From contig JAGXOA010000035.1 of NCBI GenBank assembly GCA_019894715.1, positions 1 to 38,945 on the forward strand: a stretch of 38,945 nt of DNA. The letters are read 5' to 3'. The first letter of the stretch is position 1. Every line of letters starts with the position of its first letter. This DNA is from Promethearchaeota archaeon. GTDB lineage: Archaea > Asgardarchaeota > Lokiarchaeia > Sigyniarchaeales > SOKP01. The position numbers and the translations under genes are program-made. This document shows, piece by piece, positions 7,081 through 21,082 of this stretch. Below the pieces are notes generated by a model. The model had not been told where the DNA came from. It was given only the letters and a program-made list of their open reading frames with translations, and searched no databases.

Positions 7081-9024
7081 TCACGTTCTTCTAAAGAATT
7101 TATCCATTTCTCTGAAAGATATAAATTTGAGAGTAGGGCGTCCATGAGCACAATGAAAAGGATTTTCACAATTAGCTAAATCTATTACTATTTTTCTTAT
7201 TTCTTTTAAGGATAAATCTTCACCACCACGAATACTTCGATGACATGATAAATAATTTATAATCTCCTCTTTAACATCTAAAAAACTTCTATCTTTTCCT
7301 ATTTCAGCAATATCTGAAATAATATCTTTTATTAACTCTTTATTTATTGTTTTATAGAATATTGTTGGAATTTCACGTAAAAGATAAGTATTCCCACCGA
7401 AATGTTCAAATTTAAATCCTAATCTTTCTATTTTTTTTAGATTTTCTTCTAAAAATGCTTTTTCCATTGGAGATATATCAATTTTTAATGGTGATATAAG
7501 TTTTTGAATCATCTTCTTTGAATTATCATAAAGATTATAATAGAATTCTTTTTTAATTCTCTCAGATGCTGCATGTTGATCTAAAATAAATAGTCCTTCT
7601 TCATTATCTTTATTTTTACCCTCTAAGACAATGTAAATTTTATTATTTAATTGACCTGTATAAGGTATTAAATGTATTTTAGGAAAATTTTTTTTAATTA
7701 TATATTTATTCCTTATAAATGAATCTGATAATTGAGGTTTTTCCTTATTTATCGTTTGTTCATTTAAATCTAATTGAACTGCTTTTAAATCAAGTGAATT
7801 ATCAATTTCTAAAAGGGCTTTCTTATTTTCTTTATTTGAAGACTGTTTGATTGGTCTTAATTCTTTAGAATCTATTATGACCGGTTGTTCTTCAATTAGA
7901 TCCGTATCAAATCCTGTAATCATATCAATCTTCTCCTTTTCTTTCTTATTATTTTGAAATTTCGATTTAATACCTTTTTCTGTATATATATTTAGATCTA
8001 TGGAAAGATACTCTGCTTCTGCTTTAAGGAAAAGAGTTTTTATAAATCCTCTTAATACATTATAAACTTTATTATAGATGAATGTATCATCTTCAAATCT
8101 TATTAGCAATTTTTTAGGATGTATATTAAAATCGATAATAGAAGGATCTACATCTAAATTTAGAATAAAAAAAGGATGTTTTTTTACCATTAATGTGCCT
8201 TCATATGCTTCTTTAACTGCTCTACTTACTAAATCACTTTTTACGTATCTGTGATTAATAAAAAGACTGGAAGAATCTCGACTTTTCCTTGCAATTCGAG
8301 GATGACCTATTAGACCATGAATATTAAATAAATAACCTTTTTCTTGATAATCTATTTTTTTCATTAGGGTTGCTGTATTCTTTCCATAAATACGAAAAAC
8401 CGTAGTTTTTAGATCATTTTGGGATGGACAATTTAGTATTGGTAATTCATTATGAGTATAGATAAAATGTATATTTGGATAAGCCAGAGAATATCGTTGA
8501 ATAATATTTGTTATGTGCCCTAGTTCAGTTGAATCTGATTTAAGGAATTTTTGACGAGCAGGTATATTGTAAAAGAGATCTTTAACTTGAATATTAATTC
8601 CAATTGGGGAAGAAATCTTATTTTTTTTTATAATTTTTCCTCCCTCAACTATAATATGAGTTCCATTTTTTTCTTCTGAAGTCTTAGAAATAATCTCTAC
8701 TTTACTTACAGTCACAATACTTGCTAAAGCTTCACCCCGAAAACCAAGAGTAGAAAGTTTTTGCAGATCTTTTATACTTCTTATCTTGCTACTTGTGTAT
8801 CGTCGTAAAGCAATTTCTAATTCTTCTGAAGGAATACCTATTCCATTGTCAATTACTTGAACTACTCTCTTACCTGCTTTCCGAATATTAATTTTAATTT
8901 CGGTTGAACCTGCATCAATACTATTTTCAATTAGTTCCTTTATAATATTAGCTGGTCTTTCTACAACCTCTCCTGCAGCAATTTGCTCAGCATTTAGAAT
9001 TTCTTGTATTTTATTTCTACTCAT
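7081..9024 (-). CDS. mutL: DNA mismatch repair protein MutL with endonuclease motif
   Basis: Acts after MutS recognises a mismatch. The N-terminal GHKL ATPase shows AAGEVVERP (16-24), the Glu33/Asn34 stretch ELIENSIDAG, DNGIGI (59-64) and GFRGEALAS (94-102). A low-complexity Lys/Glu/Asn linker (about 340-440) follows. The C-terminal dimerisation domain has DQHA at 482-485 within DQHA-x2-E-x4-E, SCHR at 593-596 and CAHGRP at 625-630. These are the motifs of MutL proteins that nick DNA themselves, so a methyl-directed MutH-type system is not expected. The 647 residues are a usual length. It lies 41 bases behind mutS on the same strand and is probably cotranscribed. MutS/MutL pairs are patchy in archaea and generally attributed to transfer from bacteria. 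Confidence 0.95.
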   Translation of the reverse strand: MSRNKIQEILNAEQIAAGEVVERPANIIKELIENSIDAGSTEIKINIRKAGKRVVQVIDNGIGIPSEELEIALRRYTSSKIRSIKDLQKLSTLGFRGEALASIVTVSKVEIISKTSEEKNGTHIIVEGGKIIKKNKISSPIGINIQVKDLFYNIPARQKFLKSDSTELGHITNIIQRYSLAYPNIHFIYTHNELPILNCPSQNDLKTTVFRIYGKNTATLMKKIDYQEKGYLFNIHGLIGHPRIARKSRDSSSLFINHRYVKSDLVSRAVKEAYEGTLMVKKHPFFILNLDVDPSIIDFNIHPKKLLIRFEDDTFIYNKVYNVLRGFIKTLFLKAEAEYLSIDLNIYTEKGIKSKFQNNKKEKEKIDMITGFDTDLIEEQPVIIDSKELRPIKQSSNKENKKALLEIDNSLDLKAVQLDLNEQTINKEKPQLSDSFIRNKYIIKKNFPKIHLIPYTGQLNNKIYIVLEGKNKDNEEGLFILDQHAASERIKKEFYYNLYDNSKKMIQKLISPLKIDISPMEKAFLEENLKKIERLGFKFEHFGGNTYLLREIPTIFYKTINKELIKDIISDIAEIGKDRSFLDVKEEIINYLSCHRSIRGGEDLSLKEIRKIVIDLANCENPFHCAHGRPTLKFISFREMDKFFRRT

Positions 9025-9065: not shown

Positions 9066-12000
9066 TTACTCTATTTTTTCTTTTAATTCAATAAGCTTTT
9101 TCATAGCATCAACAGGAGTTAATTCATCAATATCAAGACTATTAATTATTTTTAAAACGTTATTGAGATTTTTATTGTCAATAAGATCTGTTTTAACAAT
9201 TGGTTTAAAAAATGATGTTTGAACTGTTTGCTTTTTCTTTGATTGAAGCGTAGTTTTAACATCAACCTTATTTTTTATAATATTCTTTTTTACTTTTGAA
9301 TTCATTTCTTCTAATTTTACATTTAAATTTTGAAGTTCTTTTCTTTTAGTTTCTATTTCATTATTTAAATTTTCAAGTTGTTTATTTTTATTATCAATCA
9401 ACTTATTATGATATTTCTCTATTCCATTTTGTTTAGGATTATTTGTTTGAATTTTTGATCCTAATGGATCTTCATTTTCAATTTGTTCTAATATTTTAAA
9501 TGCTTCTATGATAACATCTTCAGGTATTCCTGCTAATTTTGCTATATGAATTCCATAAGATTTATCCGTACTTCCCTCTTTGAGTTTCCGAATGAAATTA
9601 ATTGACCCATCTTCATTTTCTATGATATCAAGATGATAATTTCTTACTCTTGGTAAATTTATTTCAGTTAATTGATGATAATGAGTACTAAATAAAGTCT
9701 TAATACCCATATCATGTAATTTTTCTAAAGTAGCAATTGCTATACTTTGTCCATCGCTTGTACTTGTTCCTCTGCCAAGCTCATCTATTATAACTAAACT
9801 ATTTTCAGTAGCATAATTTAAAATTTTAGCAGTTTCAGTCATTTCAATCATGAAAGTAGATAATTTTCTTGCTAAATCATCTGAAGCACCAATTCTAGTA
9901 AAAATTTGATCAATAATTCCTATTTTTGCTAAACTAGCTGGAACAAAACATCCCATTTGAGCAATCAAACAAATTAATGCAACTTGTCGTAAAAAAGTTG
10001 AATTGTGATTAATAATACCATTACCTATAAAGGCATGACCTTCTGGAACTGTAAAATCATAGACAATTGAGTTTGATTTCTCAATAATTTCTATTTTATC
10101 ATAAAAATAATTTTTATTTAATATCATCTCTAATTTTGAACAGTCAATTTTGCATTTATGACAATAATCAATTAATTCTTCAAATTTGAAAAATGATATA
10201 TTTCTTCCTTGTCTTATGTAACTATCAAATATTCCACTTATTTTTTTATTATATTTTAATTTATCTTCTCTTGGTATCAAATGACTCCTTTCTAGATATT
10301 TTTTCTTTATTTCATCTAAATTAGTAGATAGGTAGGGAATAATATCAATATCAGTCATTCTTAAATCTAATACTATTTTTTTCCTATTTTTTTTTCTTGG
10401 TAGTCTAAATCCTATATCTTTATGGAATTTTATAGAATCAAATCCTGTAATTCTAATCTCATAACAAGGTCTTTTTTTAGTCTTTTTTATTTTTAAAGAA
10501 CTGACAATTCCAAAGTTTAAAAGAATAATATGTACTTGTCTTGCCAATTTTATAGAAGATGTTGAATAGGTAGCATTTCCATATCTCTTTCCTGCTGTTC
10601 CATTTGTGTCAAATAATCCTTGAAGAAAACCTATAATAATTCGTTTTGGAGCTTTTAAAATACATATTGGAACCTCTTTTTCATGAGCCTGTTTATATTC
10701 TAATCCTAAAAATTTTAGAAAATTACGTAAATACTTACTTGTAATGAATATATCTTTATTCTTACTTTTTATATCTAGATCGTAATTAAAAAGTTCCTTA
10801 TTAATCCGTATGAATTCATCACGTATAAATTCATCATAATTAGATAATATATATGAATTTTCATATATTACTATTCCATCTCCAACAAGTAGACCAAGTA
10901 AATAAGCTAAATCCTCTGTTATCTTCTCTGGTATTGAATTTTTTTTTATTTTTTTTGAAGGTAGAGGATTTTTATAGTTTATTTCAACTTCAGATCCCCA
11001 GAGATCATTTTTTCTATTAATAACAATATAATCTTCTAAATTAATTTCTTTTAGAGTTTTAAATTTTTCTTTACCATGTTTATCTCTGACTAATATTGGA
11101 TGATTTTTTGTGCCTTCTATAGTATATCCTCTTTTAGTTTTTACCCTAATTGTTGGTTTTATACCATCAGAATAAAAATGAGATGTATACGCAGGACTAT
11201 TTAATCCTATGATTTTTATCTTTTTTTCTTTAAATGAACCTTCTATTATTTTTTCTGGTTTAAACGTTTTTATTGGTAATATACCTTCTCCAGAAAAGAT
11301 AAGTGTTTCAGGTGTTACACATTTTCCTGCCATATTTGGACCTGTTATAATAAGTATCTGTTCACTATTAGTGTCAATATAACAATCATTAGAAATAAAA
11401 CTTTCATTAACATTCATTTGCTCTATCACTGGATGTCTTCCATCTTTTATTTCTATTTTTTTATTATTTGTTAAAATTGGTCTACAATAATTATATTTCT
11501 CAGATATTTCCGCAAAGCTTGAAAAGACATCAATATATGCAATATTACTAGCAGTTTCTATTATATTTAATGTTTCTTCGACCACTTTATCTCTAATCGT
11601 ACAGAATATCTTATATTCCAAATCGTTTATTTTCTCTTGAGCTGATATTATTTTTTCTTCAAGCATTTTAAGTTCTTGAGTAGTATATCTCTTGGCATTC
11701 TTAAGGGTTTGACGTTCTATGTAATTCTCTGGAATATTCTTAATTAATTCTAAAGTCCTTTTAGTTATTTGCACATAATATCCTAGAATATTATTATAAC
11801 CAACTTTGAATCCGGAATTCAGATTCAAATTCTTTTTTTCTCTTTCTTCATAGTTAAGAAGATATTTTTTTCCATTATTAAGTAAATCTCTAAGATCATC
11901 AATTTTAGAATTATAGCCTTGTTTTATGATATTTCCTTCTTTGATTGTTACTGGAGGATCATCTTTAATTGTTTTTCCAATTAATTCCTGAATATTCTTA

Positions 12001-13259
12001 AATTCATTTATTTTATCCAAATATTCTGAGATCTCTTGTATTTTAGATTTTTCTAACAGATTTTTTATTTTTGGTATTTTTTCCAAAGAATTCTTAATAT
12101 TAATTAAATCTCTGGCATTTGTTCGATTTATATATGTAAGACGATTAATATATCTCTCCAAATCACCTAATACACTTAATCGTTCCCTAAGATCTGTTCT
12201 TAAGAAAATATCATCTTTAAAACTCTCGACAATATTAAGTCTATGATTTATTTCATTTAGATCGGTTAAAGGTTGCAATATTACCTTTTTTATTAGTCTT
12301 GCACCCATTGGTGTAAGTGTTCTGTCAAAAATAGAAATTAATGAAGTTTCTTTTCCTTTTTCCCATAAAGAATCTATTAATTCTAAATTTCTTTGAGTTG
12401 TATAATCTAAGTGTAATATTCCTTTTTCTTTGAGTAAATTTATTTTAAATATATTAGGAATTAAATCACGTTGAGTCTCTTTTAGAAACGCTAAAAGCCC
12501 TCCTGCTGCTTCAGTTGACATAGATAAATCTTCAAGACCAAATACCTTTAGATTAGAGATCTTAAAATGCTGTTTAATGAGATTATATGCTTCATTATAT
12601 TCAAAGTAATAATCATCATATGTTCTTACAATAGCTTCAGTTATGTCTGTTAGGAAGATAAATAAGTTTTCATCTTTCTTGAGTTCAGATGGAATAATTA
12701 ATTCTGCAGGGCTAAATCGAGCAAATATACTAAGTAATCTTTCAAATGGATCTTTCTTTTTTATAGAGTATTCAGCAACGACAAACTCCCCTGTAGAGAT
12801 ATCTGCAAAAGCACATCCATACCCTTTCTTATGTTTTACTAAAGATGCGATATAGTTGTTTTCATTTGATTTTAGCATGTATTCTTCTGTTATAGTACCC
12901 GGAGATAGAATTCTTGTAACTCCTCTTTTCACAATCCTTCCTTTTACAGTTGTAGGATCTTCTAATTGTTCAACAATAATGACTGTCTCTTTTTTCTTAA
13001 TTAGATTAGTAAAATAGTTTTTACAAGCATGATGGGGTATTCCTGCTAAAGGATATTTATCATTTCCAATTTTACGGTTTGTTAGGGTGATTCCTAATAA
13101 TTTTGAGACTCTAACTGCATCATCATAAAAAAACTCATAAAAATCTCCCATTCTATAAGCTATAAGATGCTCTGTGTATTTCTTTTTTATTGAAAACCAA
13201 TGACGCATCATAGGTGTTAAATTTCTTTCATTTATTTGTCCTATAGACATTGTAGACAC
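9066..13259 (-). CDS. mutS: DNA mismatch repair protein MutS, interrupted by an intein
   Basis: Mismatch recognition ATPase. The precursor has 1397 residues; removing the 440-residue intein (647-1086) leaves 957. Domain I contains the mismatch-binding Phe-x-Glu motif F40-Y41-E42 in MRMGDF-type context. Connector, lever and clamp domains follow to about 600. The ATPase has Walker A GPNMAGK (640-646), cut by the intein after Lys646 and resuming at Ser1087 (STFLRQVA). Walker B IIDE is at 1157-1160, followed by LGRGTSTSDG. After the ATPase a Lys/Glu-rich coiled coil and a short C-terminal helix domain (LDIDELTPVDAMKKLIEL) resemble the MutS tetramerisation tail. ATP binding requires splicing, because Ser1087 completes the P-loop GKST. 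It is the first gene of a mutS-mutL unit. Confidence 0.96.
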   Translation of the reverse strand: MSTMSIGQINERNLTPMMRHWFSIKKKYTEHLIAYRMGDFYEFFYDDAVRVSKLLGITLTNRKIGNDKYPLAGIPHHACKNYFTNLIKKKETVIIVEQLEDPTTVKGRIVKRGVTRILSPGTITEEYMLKSNENNYIASLVKHKKGYGCAFADISTGEFVVAEYSIKKKDPFERLLSIFARFSPAELIIPSELKKDENLFIFLTDITEAIVRTYDDYYFEYNEAYNLIKQHFKISNLKVFGLEDLSMSTEAAGGLLAFLKETQRDLIPNIFKINLLKEKGILHLDYTTQRNLELIDSLWEKGKETSLISIFDRTLTPMGARLIKKVILQPLTDLNEINHRLNIVESFKDDIFLRTDLRERLSVLGDLERYINRLTYINRTNARDLINIKNSLEKIPKIKNLLEKSKIQEISEYLDKINEFKNIQELIGKTIKDDPPVTIKEGNIIKQGYNSKIDDLRDLLNNGKKYLLNYEEREKKNLNLNSGFKVGYNNILGYYVQITKRTLELIKNIPENYIERQTLKNAKRYTTQELKMLEEKIISAQEKINDLEYKIFCTIRDKVVEETLNIIETASNIAYIDVFSSFAEISEKYNYCRPILTNNKKIEIKDGRHPVIEQMNVNESFISNDCYIDTNSEQILIITGPNMAGKCVTPETLIFSGEGILPIKTFKPEKIIEGSFKEKKIKIIGLNSPAYTSHFYSDGIKPTIRVKTKRGYTIEGTKNHPILVRDKHGKEKFKTLKEINLEDYIVINRKNDLWGSEVEINYKNPLPSKKIKKNSIPEKITEDLAYLLGLLVGDGIVIYENSYILSNYDEFIRDEFIRINKELFNYDLDIKSKNKDIFITSKYLRNFLKFLGLEYKQAHEKEVPICILKAPKRIIIGFLQGLFDTNGTAGKRYGNATYSTSSIKLARQVHIILLNFGIVSSLKIKKTKKRPCYEIRITGFDSIKFHKDIGFRLPRKKNRKKIVLDLRMTDIDIIPYLSTNLDEIKKKYLERSHLIPREDKLKYNKKISGIFDSYIRQGRNISFFKFEELIDYCHKCKIDCSKLEMILNKNYFYDKIEIIEKSNSIVYDFTVPEGHAFIGNGIINHNSTFLRQVALICLIAQMGCFVPASLAKIGIIDQIFTRIGASDDLARKLSTFMIEMTETAKILNYATENSLVIIDELGRGTSTSDGQSIAIATLEKLHDMGIKTLFSTHYHQLTEINLPRVRNYHLDIIENEDGSINFIRKLKEGSTDKSYGIHIAKLAGIPEDVIIEAFKILEQIENEDPLGSKIQTNNPKQNGIEKYHNKLIDNKNKQLENLNNEIETKRKELQNLNVKLEEMNSKVKKNIIKNKVDVKTTLQSKKKQTVQTSFFKPIVKTDLIDNKNLNNVLKIINSLDIDELTPVDAMKKLIELKEKIE
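10002..11321 (-). mobile_element. Intein with LAGLIDADG homing endonuclease inside MutS (Walker A insertion)
   Basis: A 440-residue in-frame insertion. The splicing domain is complete: Cys1 (precursor 647) in CVTPETLIFSGEG, the block B TxxH as TKNH (intein 71-74), the block F region IVYDFTVPEGHAF, and the end GIINHN with the penultimate His and terminal Asn, followed by Ser+1. Both dodecapeptides of a DOD homing endonuclease are present: LAYLLGLLVGDG (intein 138-149) and IGFLQGLFDTNG (230-241), with an acidic residue near each end. The endonuclease may therefore still cut intein-less mutS alleles. Insertion is exactly between Lys and Ser of GPNMAGKST. Base composition matches the host gene. 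Confidence 0.95.
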
Positions 13260-18050: not shown

Positions 18051-20000
18051 ATGATAAAAGAATCTTTAGAAATATATATTCGAGATTTTTTTAAATCAAA
18101 AATTAATATCTCAAAAAATTTTACATTTGACAAGCTTGATGAATTATTTGTAAAAATTCCACGTTTCAAATCTATTATTATAGAAAAATTGAATAATTTG
18201 AAAATATTAGATCCTGCTTGTGGTTCTGGTCGATTTCTATTAGGATTAGTCGAGTTATTATTCAATCTTTATCGTTTAGTAGATTCTTCTTCTGATAATT
18301 TTACTTTAAAAAAGAAGATAATTAAAAATAACATATATGGAATCGATTCTGATGAGGAAGCATGCTTTATTTCAAAATTAAGATTGTTTAGATGGCTATA
18401 TTCCGAATCTGAGGCTTCTGAATGGGATAATAATAATCTTTTTATATTAGAGAAGAAAAATGACCTAAAAAATCTTAGAAAGTTATTTAATTCTATTAAT
18501 TTCAGATTTAACATTAAAAATCAAGACTTTTTATTGGATAACCAACCACCAGGTAAATATGATATTATAATAGGTAATCCTCCTTATATTGAAAATAAAA
18601 AGATAATAAATCTAGAGTATAAAAAAAAATTATACGCAAACTTTCAATCTGCATATAAATTATTTGATCTTTCTATCTTATTTATTGAAAGATCACTGAA
18701 TATTCTAAAAAATTCAGGATTTATATCATTTTTGATTACAAATAAATTCTTATCCTCTGATTATGGAATTAAATTAAGAAAATTACTAATAGTCCAATCA
18801 AAAATTAAATTAATTATCAACATATCTTCACTACCTATTTTTTTAAGAAAATCAATATATCCAATAATAATTTTTATTCAAAATAAAATTCCAAAAGAAA
18901 AACATATGATCAAAATCAAAAATATAGAGAATTTAGAGAATTTAGAAAATTATACAGAATTTAAGATGTTTCTCCAAAGGAAATTTTTAGAATTTCCTGG
19001 AAAAGTTATACCTTTAAAAGGAGATATAGAGTTTATCCATAAAATTTATCTAACATATAAATCAATGGATGAAAAATTTAATAATCTCAAAATCGTCTAC
19101 CGACCATATGGTTTTACTGACTATACAAAATATTTTAATTATATTAATAAAATTAAACAAACTGAGTATGATTTAATTTTGATTGGAACTGGAAACGTTG
19201 GAAAATATCATATTAAATTCAATAAAAAGATTAAAATTGCCAAAGGGAACTATAGTGTTTCTTATATTAATCCCGAAAATAAAAATCAGAATATTTGGTC
19301 CAAGATTTGTACAAACAAAATCATATTTAGAGAAATTGCTAAAGAATTAACATGTGTTTATGATCCAGGAGTATTTACTAATATTACTGGTTTATATTTT
19401 ATTGAAATACCTAATCTTGAAGTAGATAGTCTATTTGCACTTCTATGTATCCTCAATTCTAAATTTATAGATGATATATTTAAAACATTATTTGGTACTT
19501 TACATATGGCTGGAGGTTACTTGAGATTTAATGGGAGCTTTATTAAAAAATTGCCTATGCCTCACTGTTTTCCATTAATTTTGGCTAGATTAGGAAAATT
19601 AACACAATTTCTTCAACAATTAAATTATGATTATTTCAATCATGAAAATTATTTTAATTTTTTCAGTCAGAGTAAAATAAAATTATTACTAGATTTTCTT
19701 AATCCTCTTTCTGAGGCATTAATAAGAGTATTATACATATCTGGTATGGTGGGAAACTCTAATAATCTCTTTCAGGAGTTGAATATTTTACTAAATCTAA
19801 AAAATACCTTTTTTGATATAGAATTGAAATTTTCTTATCCATATTTTAATTTGGACTTATATAATACAACATCTAACCAAGAACAAGAAATTATAATTTT
19901 AAAAATAGAGAAGATCATTTGTAATCTCAAGAAAAACAAAGAATTATTAGAAGAAATTAAAAAAATAAATAATCAAATAAATTTTATTTTTAAAAATTAA
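18051..20000 (+). CDS. Eco57I/TaqI-like type II DNA N6-adenine methyltransferase
   Basis: Predicted to methylate adenine in a specific DNA sequence. The first ATG-started 649 residues show motif I DPACGSGRFLLGL, motif II YGIDSDEEA, and motif IV DIIIGNPPYIE, whose NPPY marks N6-adenine or N4-cytosine enzymes. The C-terminal half, with TGLYFIEIPN and YLRFNGSFIKKLPMP, resembles the TaqI-type target-recognition region. No nuclease domain (PD-(D/E)xK) is visible and no restriction gene is adjacent, so it looks like an orphan methylase or a damaged type IIG system. The start at 18051 removes the YTP block found in frame upstream, so the true protein is probably longer. Confidence 0.83.
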   Translation: MIKESLEIYIRDFFKSKINISKNFTFDKLDELFVKIPRFKSIIIEKLNNLKILDPACGSGRFLLGLVELLFNLYRLVDSSSDNFTLKKKIIKNNIYGIDSDEEACFISKLRLFRWLYSESEASEWDNNNLFILEKKNDLKNLRKLFNSINFRFNIKNQDFLLDNQPPGKYDIIIGNPPYIENKKIINLEYKKKLYANFQSAYKLFDLSILFIERSLNILKNSGFISFLITNKFLSSDYGIKLRKLLIVQSKIKLIINISSLPIFLRKSIYPIIIFIQNKIPKEKHMIKIKNIENLENLENYTEFKMFLQRKFLEFPGKVIPLKGDIEFIHKIYLTYKSMDEKFNNLKIVYRPYGFTDYTKYFNYINKIKQTEYDLILIGTGNVGKYHIKFNKKIKIAKGNYSVSYINPENKNQNIWSKICTNKIIFREIAKELTCVYDPGVFTNITGLYFIEIPNLEVDSLFALLCILNSKFIDDIFKTLFGTLHMAGGYLRFNGSFIKKLPMPHCFPLILARLGKLTQFLQQLNYDYFNHENYFNFFSQSKIKLLLDFLNPLSEALIRVLYISGMVGNSNNLFQELNILLNLKNTFFDIELKFSYPYFNLDLYNTTSNQEQEIIILKIEKIICNLKKNKELLEEIKKINNQINFIFKN

Positions 20001-20119: not shown

Positions 20120-21082
20120 ATGAAAGAAATGAAAAGTAAATATAAACGCAGCATTATTAAATTAGGTAACTCAAAAGCAATAACATTTCCTCAAGAATGG
20201 ACAGAAATTGCTAAATTGAAAGAAAAGTCCGAAATTACACTTTATCCAATCGATAGTAAAACATTAATAATCCATGCTCAAGAAGATAAAGATCAAAAGA
20301 AAGTATATAGACTAGATAGTACAACTATACCAATTAAATTAGTGCGGCAAGCAATCTTATCCGCATTTAAATTAAATATAGATGAAATTTATCTTAAATA
20401 TAACTCGGAAATTCAAGAAAATTTATATAAACTACTAATTGAATTAAGAAGAGAAATTATAGGCTTTGATTTTAAAAATCTACCAGAATCAAATGAATTT
20501 TTTGTAAATTTTCTTCTCGATACATCAAAAACCACTTTTTTTGATGTTTTAGAGGATTTAGTAAAAGTATTTAATACAATAATAAAAAATATTGTAGAAG
20601 GAGAAGCAAGTAAAATTAGCGATCTATTATTAGATGAAATTGATAGAAAATATTCATTGGGGACAAGAATATTAATAACAGGGTTATCTGAATATCCTAT
20701 TTCTAGAACTCAAATACCAATAATTAGATTCCTAGGAAATAGAGTTATTCTCTTATATATTAGAGATTTTATAAATGAAGCATTAATGAACTTACAGCAT
20801 GTTCCTTCTGATATAATAAGCAAATATAAAACTTTATTGTTGAAAATTCCAGAATTATTGAGCGATATTTTAAAGAATTATAATAACATTAATTCAGAAA
20901 CCATATCTATTTTTCAGAATTCCTTAATAGAACTTCAAAAAAAAATTGATAATACAACTTTCGATTCTGACCAAGCAAAATGCCATATAAAGAATTCAAT
21001 TAAATATTATTTAAATAGTTTTAAAAATTTTCTTGATATAGGAATAAGCAGAATGATACAAGATGAGATAGGTCTTTCTTAA
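20120..21082 (+). CDS. AbrB-domain PhoU-like regulator
   Basis: A 320-residue archaeal fusion of an N-terminal AbrB/SpoVT-type swapped-hairpin DNA-binding domain and a long helical PhoU-like domain. The first part, SIIKLGNSKAITFPQEWTE (12-30), is the classic AbrB start. The rest is predicted all-helical with heptad-like leucines, including RDFINEALMNL and IKNIVEGEA, as in proteins annotated as phosphate-uptake regulators. No Pst phosphate transporter is nearby, so a link to phosphate is family knowledge only. The ATG follows a possible operator. Confidence 0.82.
   Translation: MKEMKSKYKRSIIKLGNSKAITFPQEWTEIAKLKEKSEITLYPIDSKTLIIHAQEDKDQKKVYRLDSTTIPIKLVRQAILSAFKLNIDEIYLKYNSEIQENLYKLLIELRREIIGFDFKNLPESNEFFVNFLLDTSKTTFFDVLEDLVKVFNTIIKNIVEGEASKISDLLLDEIDRKYSLGTRILITGLSEYPISRTQIPIIRFLGNRVILLYIRDFINEALMNLQHVPSDIISKYKTLLLKIPELLSDILKNYNNINSETISIFQNSLIELQKKIDNTTFDSDQAKCHIKNSIKYYLNSFKNFLDIGISRMIQDEIGLS

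Follow-up and report, generated by a model that had tools for sequence, protein, structure and literature searches.

The window analysed here is a 38,945-nucleotide stretch of contig JAGXOA010000035.1 from an Asgard archaeon of the Lokiarchaeia, and its reverse strand holds a single unbroken frame of 1397 codons without a stop between positions 9066 and 13259, which opens with GTG and encodes a MutS precursor. MutS domains I, II, III, IV and V were all recovered from this frame (Pfam MutS_I to V; NCBIfam PRK05399 MutS, E=2.2e-272), identifying the host as MutS1. The mutL gene follows 41 bp downstream on the same strand (7081-9024; TIGR00585, E=3.9e-145), and the two genes are likely co-transcribed; mutL also lies near mutS in relatives, both in those bearing the intein described below and in those free of it. 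Searching the whole genome (an assembly of 3.36 Mb in 288 contigs, 98% complete) for MutS domain V returned one match, with no second recognisable MutS and no empty allele. The nearest relatives of this MutS, 62-81% identical, all come from Lokiarchaeota/Lokiarchaeia assemblies. Elsewhere in the window, an Eco57I-type N6-adenine methylase of 649 aa (18051-20000, forward strand) adjoins a 320-aa ORF without Pfam match (20120-21082, forward strand), possibly forming a restriction-modification pair.

The MutS frame is interrupted by an intein of 440 aa (10002-11321, reverse strand, as are all features of mutS given here), which runs from Cys1 to Asn440 and occupies MutS residues 647-1086. Its N-extein (11322-13259) comprises MutS residues 1-646 and ends in GPNMAGK, and its C-extein (9066-10001) begins with Ser1087-Thr and carries MutS domain V with the signature GRGTST. 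The intein thus splits the Walker A motif of MutS as GPNMAGK/ST: the flanks read ...IITGPNMAGK and STFLRQVAL..., and once joined they give GPNMAGKST, as found in relatives with an empty site. The original prediction had placed a 440-residue insertion at 10002-11321, exactly between Lys646 and Ser1087, and we reproduced both these coordinates and the split of the P-loop. Within the MutS frame, Pfam reports Intein_splicing (E=7.6e-15) and LAGLIDADG_3 (E=1.8e-14), and NCBIfam reports intein_Nterm (1.9e-6) and intein_Cterm (2.8e-7), each above cut-off.

All splice residues that had been claimed for the insertion are present. The N-terminal part of the HINT domain covers intein residues 1-118 (10968-11321; boundary approximate, from intein_Nterm and the structural model) and includes the nucleophile Cys1 of block A (codon TGT, 11319-11321), invariant in 34/34 aligned inteins, as well as block B with TKNH at intein residues 71-74 (T71-K-N-H74, 11100-11111), which fits the TxxH pattern. 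Blocks F and G, YDFTVPEGHAFIGNGIINHN (10002-10061, intein_Cterm), contain D422 and H429 in block F and close with the penultimate His439 and terminal Asn440, a His-Asn end shared by all 35 inteins (35/35), followed by Ser1087 as Ser+1. The insert is in frame and its removal restores a conserved host protein; we class it as a full-length LAGLIDADG-type class 1 intein at the P-loop K/S junction of MutS1.

The AlphaFold model of the intein, built on 35 inteins, reached a mean pLDDT of 90.6 and a pTM of 0.92 (an earlier model from 4 sequences was poor, with a pLDDT of 55.8, and was set aside). Its best match in the PDB is the TliVMA intein (E=8.2e-29, TM 0.73), with PhoVMA, PI-PfuI and further structures, PI-SceI among them, ranking next, and the HINT fold is matched by TliVMA, PI-PfuI and the Mxe GyrA intein. 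The predicted architecture, in which a HINT fold carries an endonuclease domain together with accessory helices, is therefore well supported. The two-motif LAGLIDADG endonuclease domain would extend over intein residues 135-300 (10422-10919), as defined by Pfam LAGLIDADG_3 and fold matches to TliVMA, PI-PfuI and I-DmoI, and a helical accessory region over residues 301-404 (10110-10421) would connect it to the C-terminal part of HINT, as indicated by the secondary structure of the model and by analogy with VMA inteins (PMC8966425); the boundaries of both are approximate.

The original prediction described two visible dodecapeptides and an intact LAGLIDADG endonuclease, and the first of these statements stands whereas the second does not. 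Block C, LLGLLVGDG (intein residues 141-149, 10875-10901), and block E, LQGLFDTNG (residues 233-241, 10599-10625), are both readily seen and coincide with helices 136-148 and 226-240 of the model. Block C keeps its acidic D148 (GAT, 10878-10880), but the catalytic position of block E is N240 (AAT, 10602-10604), so that only one of the two motifs retains its acid; the second motif reads DTNG in the window and DTDG in all three related MutS inteins, making the window copy the sole one among four with Asn at this position. About 8 residues that precede block C in the relatives are also missing from the window intein. Both aspartates are named as catalytic residues in VMA inteins, and an archaeal VMA intein without them is described as inactive but cut again once its active sites had been engineered back (PMC8966425). 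Because the catalytic Asp of block E is replaced by Asn240, the window endonuclease is probably no longer catalytically intact, and most likely it was disabled recently.

That the enzyme is still active and homing, with Asn240 tolerated or present as a minor variant, seems rather unlikely to us, although several observations speak for it. The domain is full-length, dS exceeds dN in every comparison, the Asp of block C and the Lys of block D are kept, and one Asgard GyrA intein (L100) likewise has Asn at the block E position. Against this, the block E column of 35 aligned inteins holds 28 D, 3 E, 2 N, 1 T and 1 K, i.e., Asp or Glu in 31/35, and the three MutS relatives as well as the VMA work cited above point the same way. 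Asn and Asp at position 240 are one base apart, so the difference could be a single-base polymorphism or an error in a metagenome-assembled genome, and a single Asn-for-Asp change may leave nicking or residual activity. Faster evolution of the window intein following endonuclease decay was also considered and is not supported, since the relatives do not exceed it in identity to GyrA outgroups.

Homologous inteins occupy the same K/S site of MutS in three other Lokiarchaeia species, with an identity of about 55%: L049 (genome G119, JAHPYZ010000040.1), L047 (G136, JAEOTP010000008.1) and L086 (G098), the last of them cut by a contig end. A DNA pattern joining the P-loop to the intein Cys matched the window, G119 and G136 only among 228 genomes of the phylum. 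MutS domain V was recovered from 61 of the 65 genomes in the family, and the site is occupied in 4/61 of these alleles and uninterrupted at the P-loop motif in 57; in the remaining four (G109, G111, G138 and G150) domain V was not found, though G111 is 97% and G138 92% complete. The occupied alleles are spread over four genera, each of which also includes genomes with an empty site, and the closest sampled relative, L050, has an empty site in a MutS 82% identical to that of the window. Same-site homologues together with empty alleles among relatives are what marks a mobile intein allele family, and a chance origin of the insertion is excluded because homologous inserts interrupt MutS at this very residue in three further species. 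Searches with the exact pattern, which Ser-starting inteins or variant P-loops would escape, found the intein in 0/394 and 0/399 genomes from the phyla of Methanothrix and Clostridia genomes, respectively.

Comparing the phylogenies of intein and host, as the original prediction had proposed, shows monophyletic inteins in scattered hosts. The four MutS inteins form one clade (support 100/100, or 100/99 with viral inteins added), and in a 51-sequence MutS tree the three occupied genes recovered in full stand in three places, each amid empty ones; parsimony on this tree needs at least three changes, which are forced by the starred branches. L047 and L049 belong to different genera, and their inteins are as similar as their host proteins (71.2% and 70.9% identity), with the endonuclease among the best conserved parts (77% identity, dN 0.15). 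For this one pair, on which our test of horizontal transfer rests, dS is 1.01 in the intein versus 1.86 in the extein, values near saturation, and four-fold sites give 41/90 versus 115/188 (Fisher p=0.02), with p=0.006 for third positions. Because the intein is less diverged than MutS at silent sites, the comparison favours horizontal homing between the L047 and L049 lineages, or from a shared source. For the window, silent sites have reached saturation and this comparison gives no significant difference, so its copy may be either an older resident lost in relatives or an arrival from an unsampled lineage.

The nearest other inteins, about 30% identical, are found in Asgard GyrA genes and on viral contigs. 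A derivation from GyrA inteins is not stably supported, as the sister relation (80/79 without viral inteins) is lost once these are added and the ribonucleotide reductase intein of a viral contig takes that place (91/87). Scanning 2.9 million viral contigs with the P-loop-Cys DNA pattern revealed no viral carrier of the MutS intein; when viral contigs were searched with a profile, the inteins returned were mostly 24-34% identical, several in GK/T P-loops of other viral ATPases and none in MutS, and the best match in phage records, at 30%, lies in a terminase. Separately, the viral-contig inteins L126, L127, L129, L130, L135, L146, L152 and L155, which resemble the window intein, sit at GK/T of apparent P-loops in several unrelated ATPases.

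Taken together, we are confident that the locus holds a P-loop class 1 intein which is predicted to home sporadically and whose endonuclease is probably in decay in the window copy. After translation, Cys1 would initiate an N-S acyl shift with transfer of the chain to Ser1087, and Asn440 together with His439 would free the intein, leaving a MutS of 957 residues with its Walker A motif restored; before splicing the ATPase, and with it mismatch repair, would be off. At the DNA level, the intein would home from time to time from one mutS allele to another within Lokiarchaeia, where endonucleases of related species with both aspartates are predicted to cut empty GPNMAGK/ST alleles. The window endonuclease, with block E Asp changed to Asn, would probably be decaying, and its intein is likely inherited passively, with splicing presumably retained through selection on MutS.

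MutS limits mutation and also recombination between diverged DNA. The idea that slow or condition-dependent splicing serves as a switch tuning mismatch repair and the mutation rate appears improbable to us. The insertion does separate the invariant Lys from the Mg-coordinating Ser, the precursor has no continuous Walker A motif and the genome no second recognisable MutS, so slow splicing would have a real consequence; decay of the endonuclease without loss of the intein would also fit retention for function. The P-loop intein of RadA blocks ATPase function until spliced and that of DnaB is assumed to act alike; reports describe responses of these inteins to temperature, ssDNA or oxidants, and both have been proposed as sensors (PMC5790916, PMC6195587). 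However, 57 relatives manage without the intein and there is no sign of selection for keeping it, an intein that has lost its endonuclease is expected to persist in any case, exact intein loss being rare, no condition-sensing feature was identified in it, and the sequence gives no indication of slow or conditional splicing. An extension of the idea, in which slow or stress-dependent splicing sets the level of working MutS, raises the mutation supply and eases the intein's own homing between divergent species, since MutS restrains recombination of diverged DNA, is more doubtful still. Should splicing prove conditional, the sole recognisable MutS of this genome would be under post-translational control.

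Hardly credible is a failure to splice that has inactivated mutS and produced a natural mutator lineage: mature MutS depends on a splicing step which is here predicted, yet every catalytic splice residue is kept, both exteins form a full, conserved MutS with all domains, and between the window and L050 MutS shows a dN of 0.11 against a dS of 0.97. Chimeric assembly or contamination, a danger which the original prediction had itself pointed to, has practically no chance of having made the insertion even in a genome fragmented into 288 contigs, given in-frame homologous inserts at the same residue in three independent genomes and a G+C of 24% in the insert versus 25-28% in the exteins. The insertion is a genuine mobile intein and not an assembly artefact.

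Further inteins were met in the same genome and in other Asgard archaea. In the window genome they comprise at least two in a 1785-aa ORF (G000:C213:19392-22712; L157, L159-L161), probably two in a 1666-aa ribonucleotide reductase ORF (G000:C238:9477-10373; L162) and one in a 1697-aa ORF (G000:C256:6553-6954; L156). Another Asgard archaeon, G030, has an intein in S-adenosylmethionine synthetase, an unusual host gene, just before SGKDPSKVDRSA (L088:1501-2844, reverse strand). GyrA inteins at the catalytic Tyr/Thr site (L087, L089-L091, L095-L098, L100, L107) recur across Asgard families; their block C acid is mostly Glu and the block E Asp is missing in L100 (Asn) and L107 (Thr), so endonuclease decay appears to be a repeated event among them.

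Among known inteins, those of Thermococcus litoralis VMA-b (TliVMA, PDB 7qss) and Pyrococcus horikoshii VMA-b (PhoVMA, 7qst) resemble the window intein in having HINT split by a two-motif LAGLIDADG domain plus accessory helices, the endonuclease being active in the former and decayed in the latter (PMC8966425), but they differ in host gene and site and are about 20% identical to it. The closest cellular inteins, those of Asgard GyrA (L087, L091, L095 and others; 26-34% identity), share Cys1 and the HN end but have another host and site, Thr at +1 and mostly Glu as the block C acid. ATP-binding proteins host about 70% of the inteins of bacteria and archaea, and the junction between the invariant Lys and nucleophilic Thr of the P-loop is a classic intein position (PMC5050341). 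The K/S or K/T inteins of RadA, DnaB (site b), MCM and TerL1-a occupy the same Walker A position with the P-loop Ser or Thr as +1 (PMC5050341, PMC6195587, PMC5790916), but their host ATPases are unrelated and several are mini-inteins without an endonuclease; an MCM P-loop intein was also met in our analysis, and MCM inteins are not close to the MutS inteins in the tree. The original prediction held that MutS is rarely listed as a host, in line with the survey of Green et al. 2018 (PMC5784728), which gives two MutS-like inteins, both in Mimiviridae, where the host is likewise a MutS homologue but viral. These Mimiviridae cases are cited in a 2024 study of MutS genes in plants, which is aware of no eukaryotic example (PMC12292046), and we found no description of an archaeal MutS intein in the open-access papers searched. 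A single family in which four alleles are occupied and 57 are empty offers enough material for studying how Asgard inteins home, lose their endonuclease and disappear. An archaeal mismatch-repair gene thus joins the intein hosts: P-loop insertion and MutS-like inteins were already known, and what is new is the host gene and its allele family.
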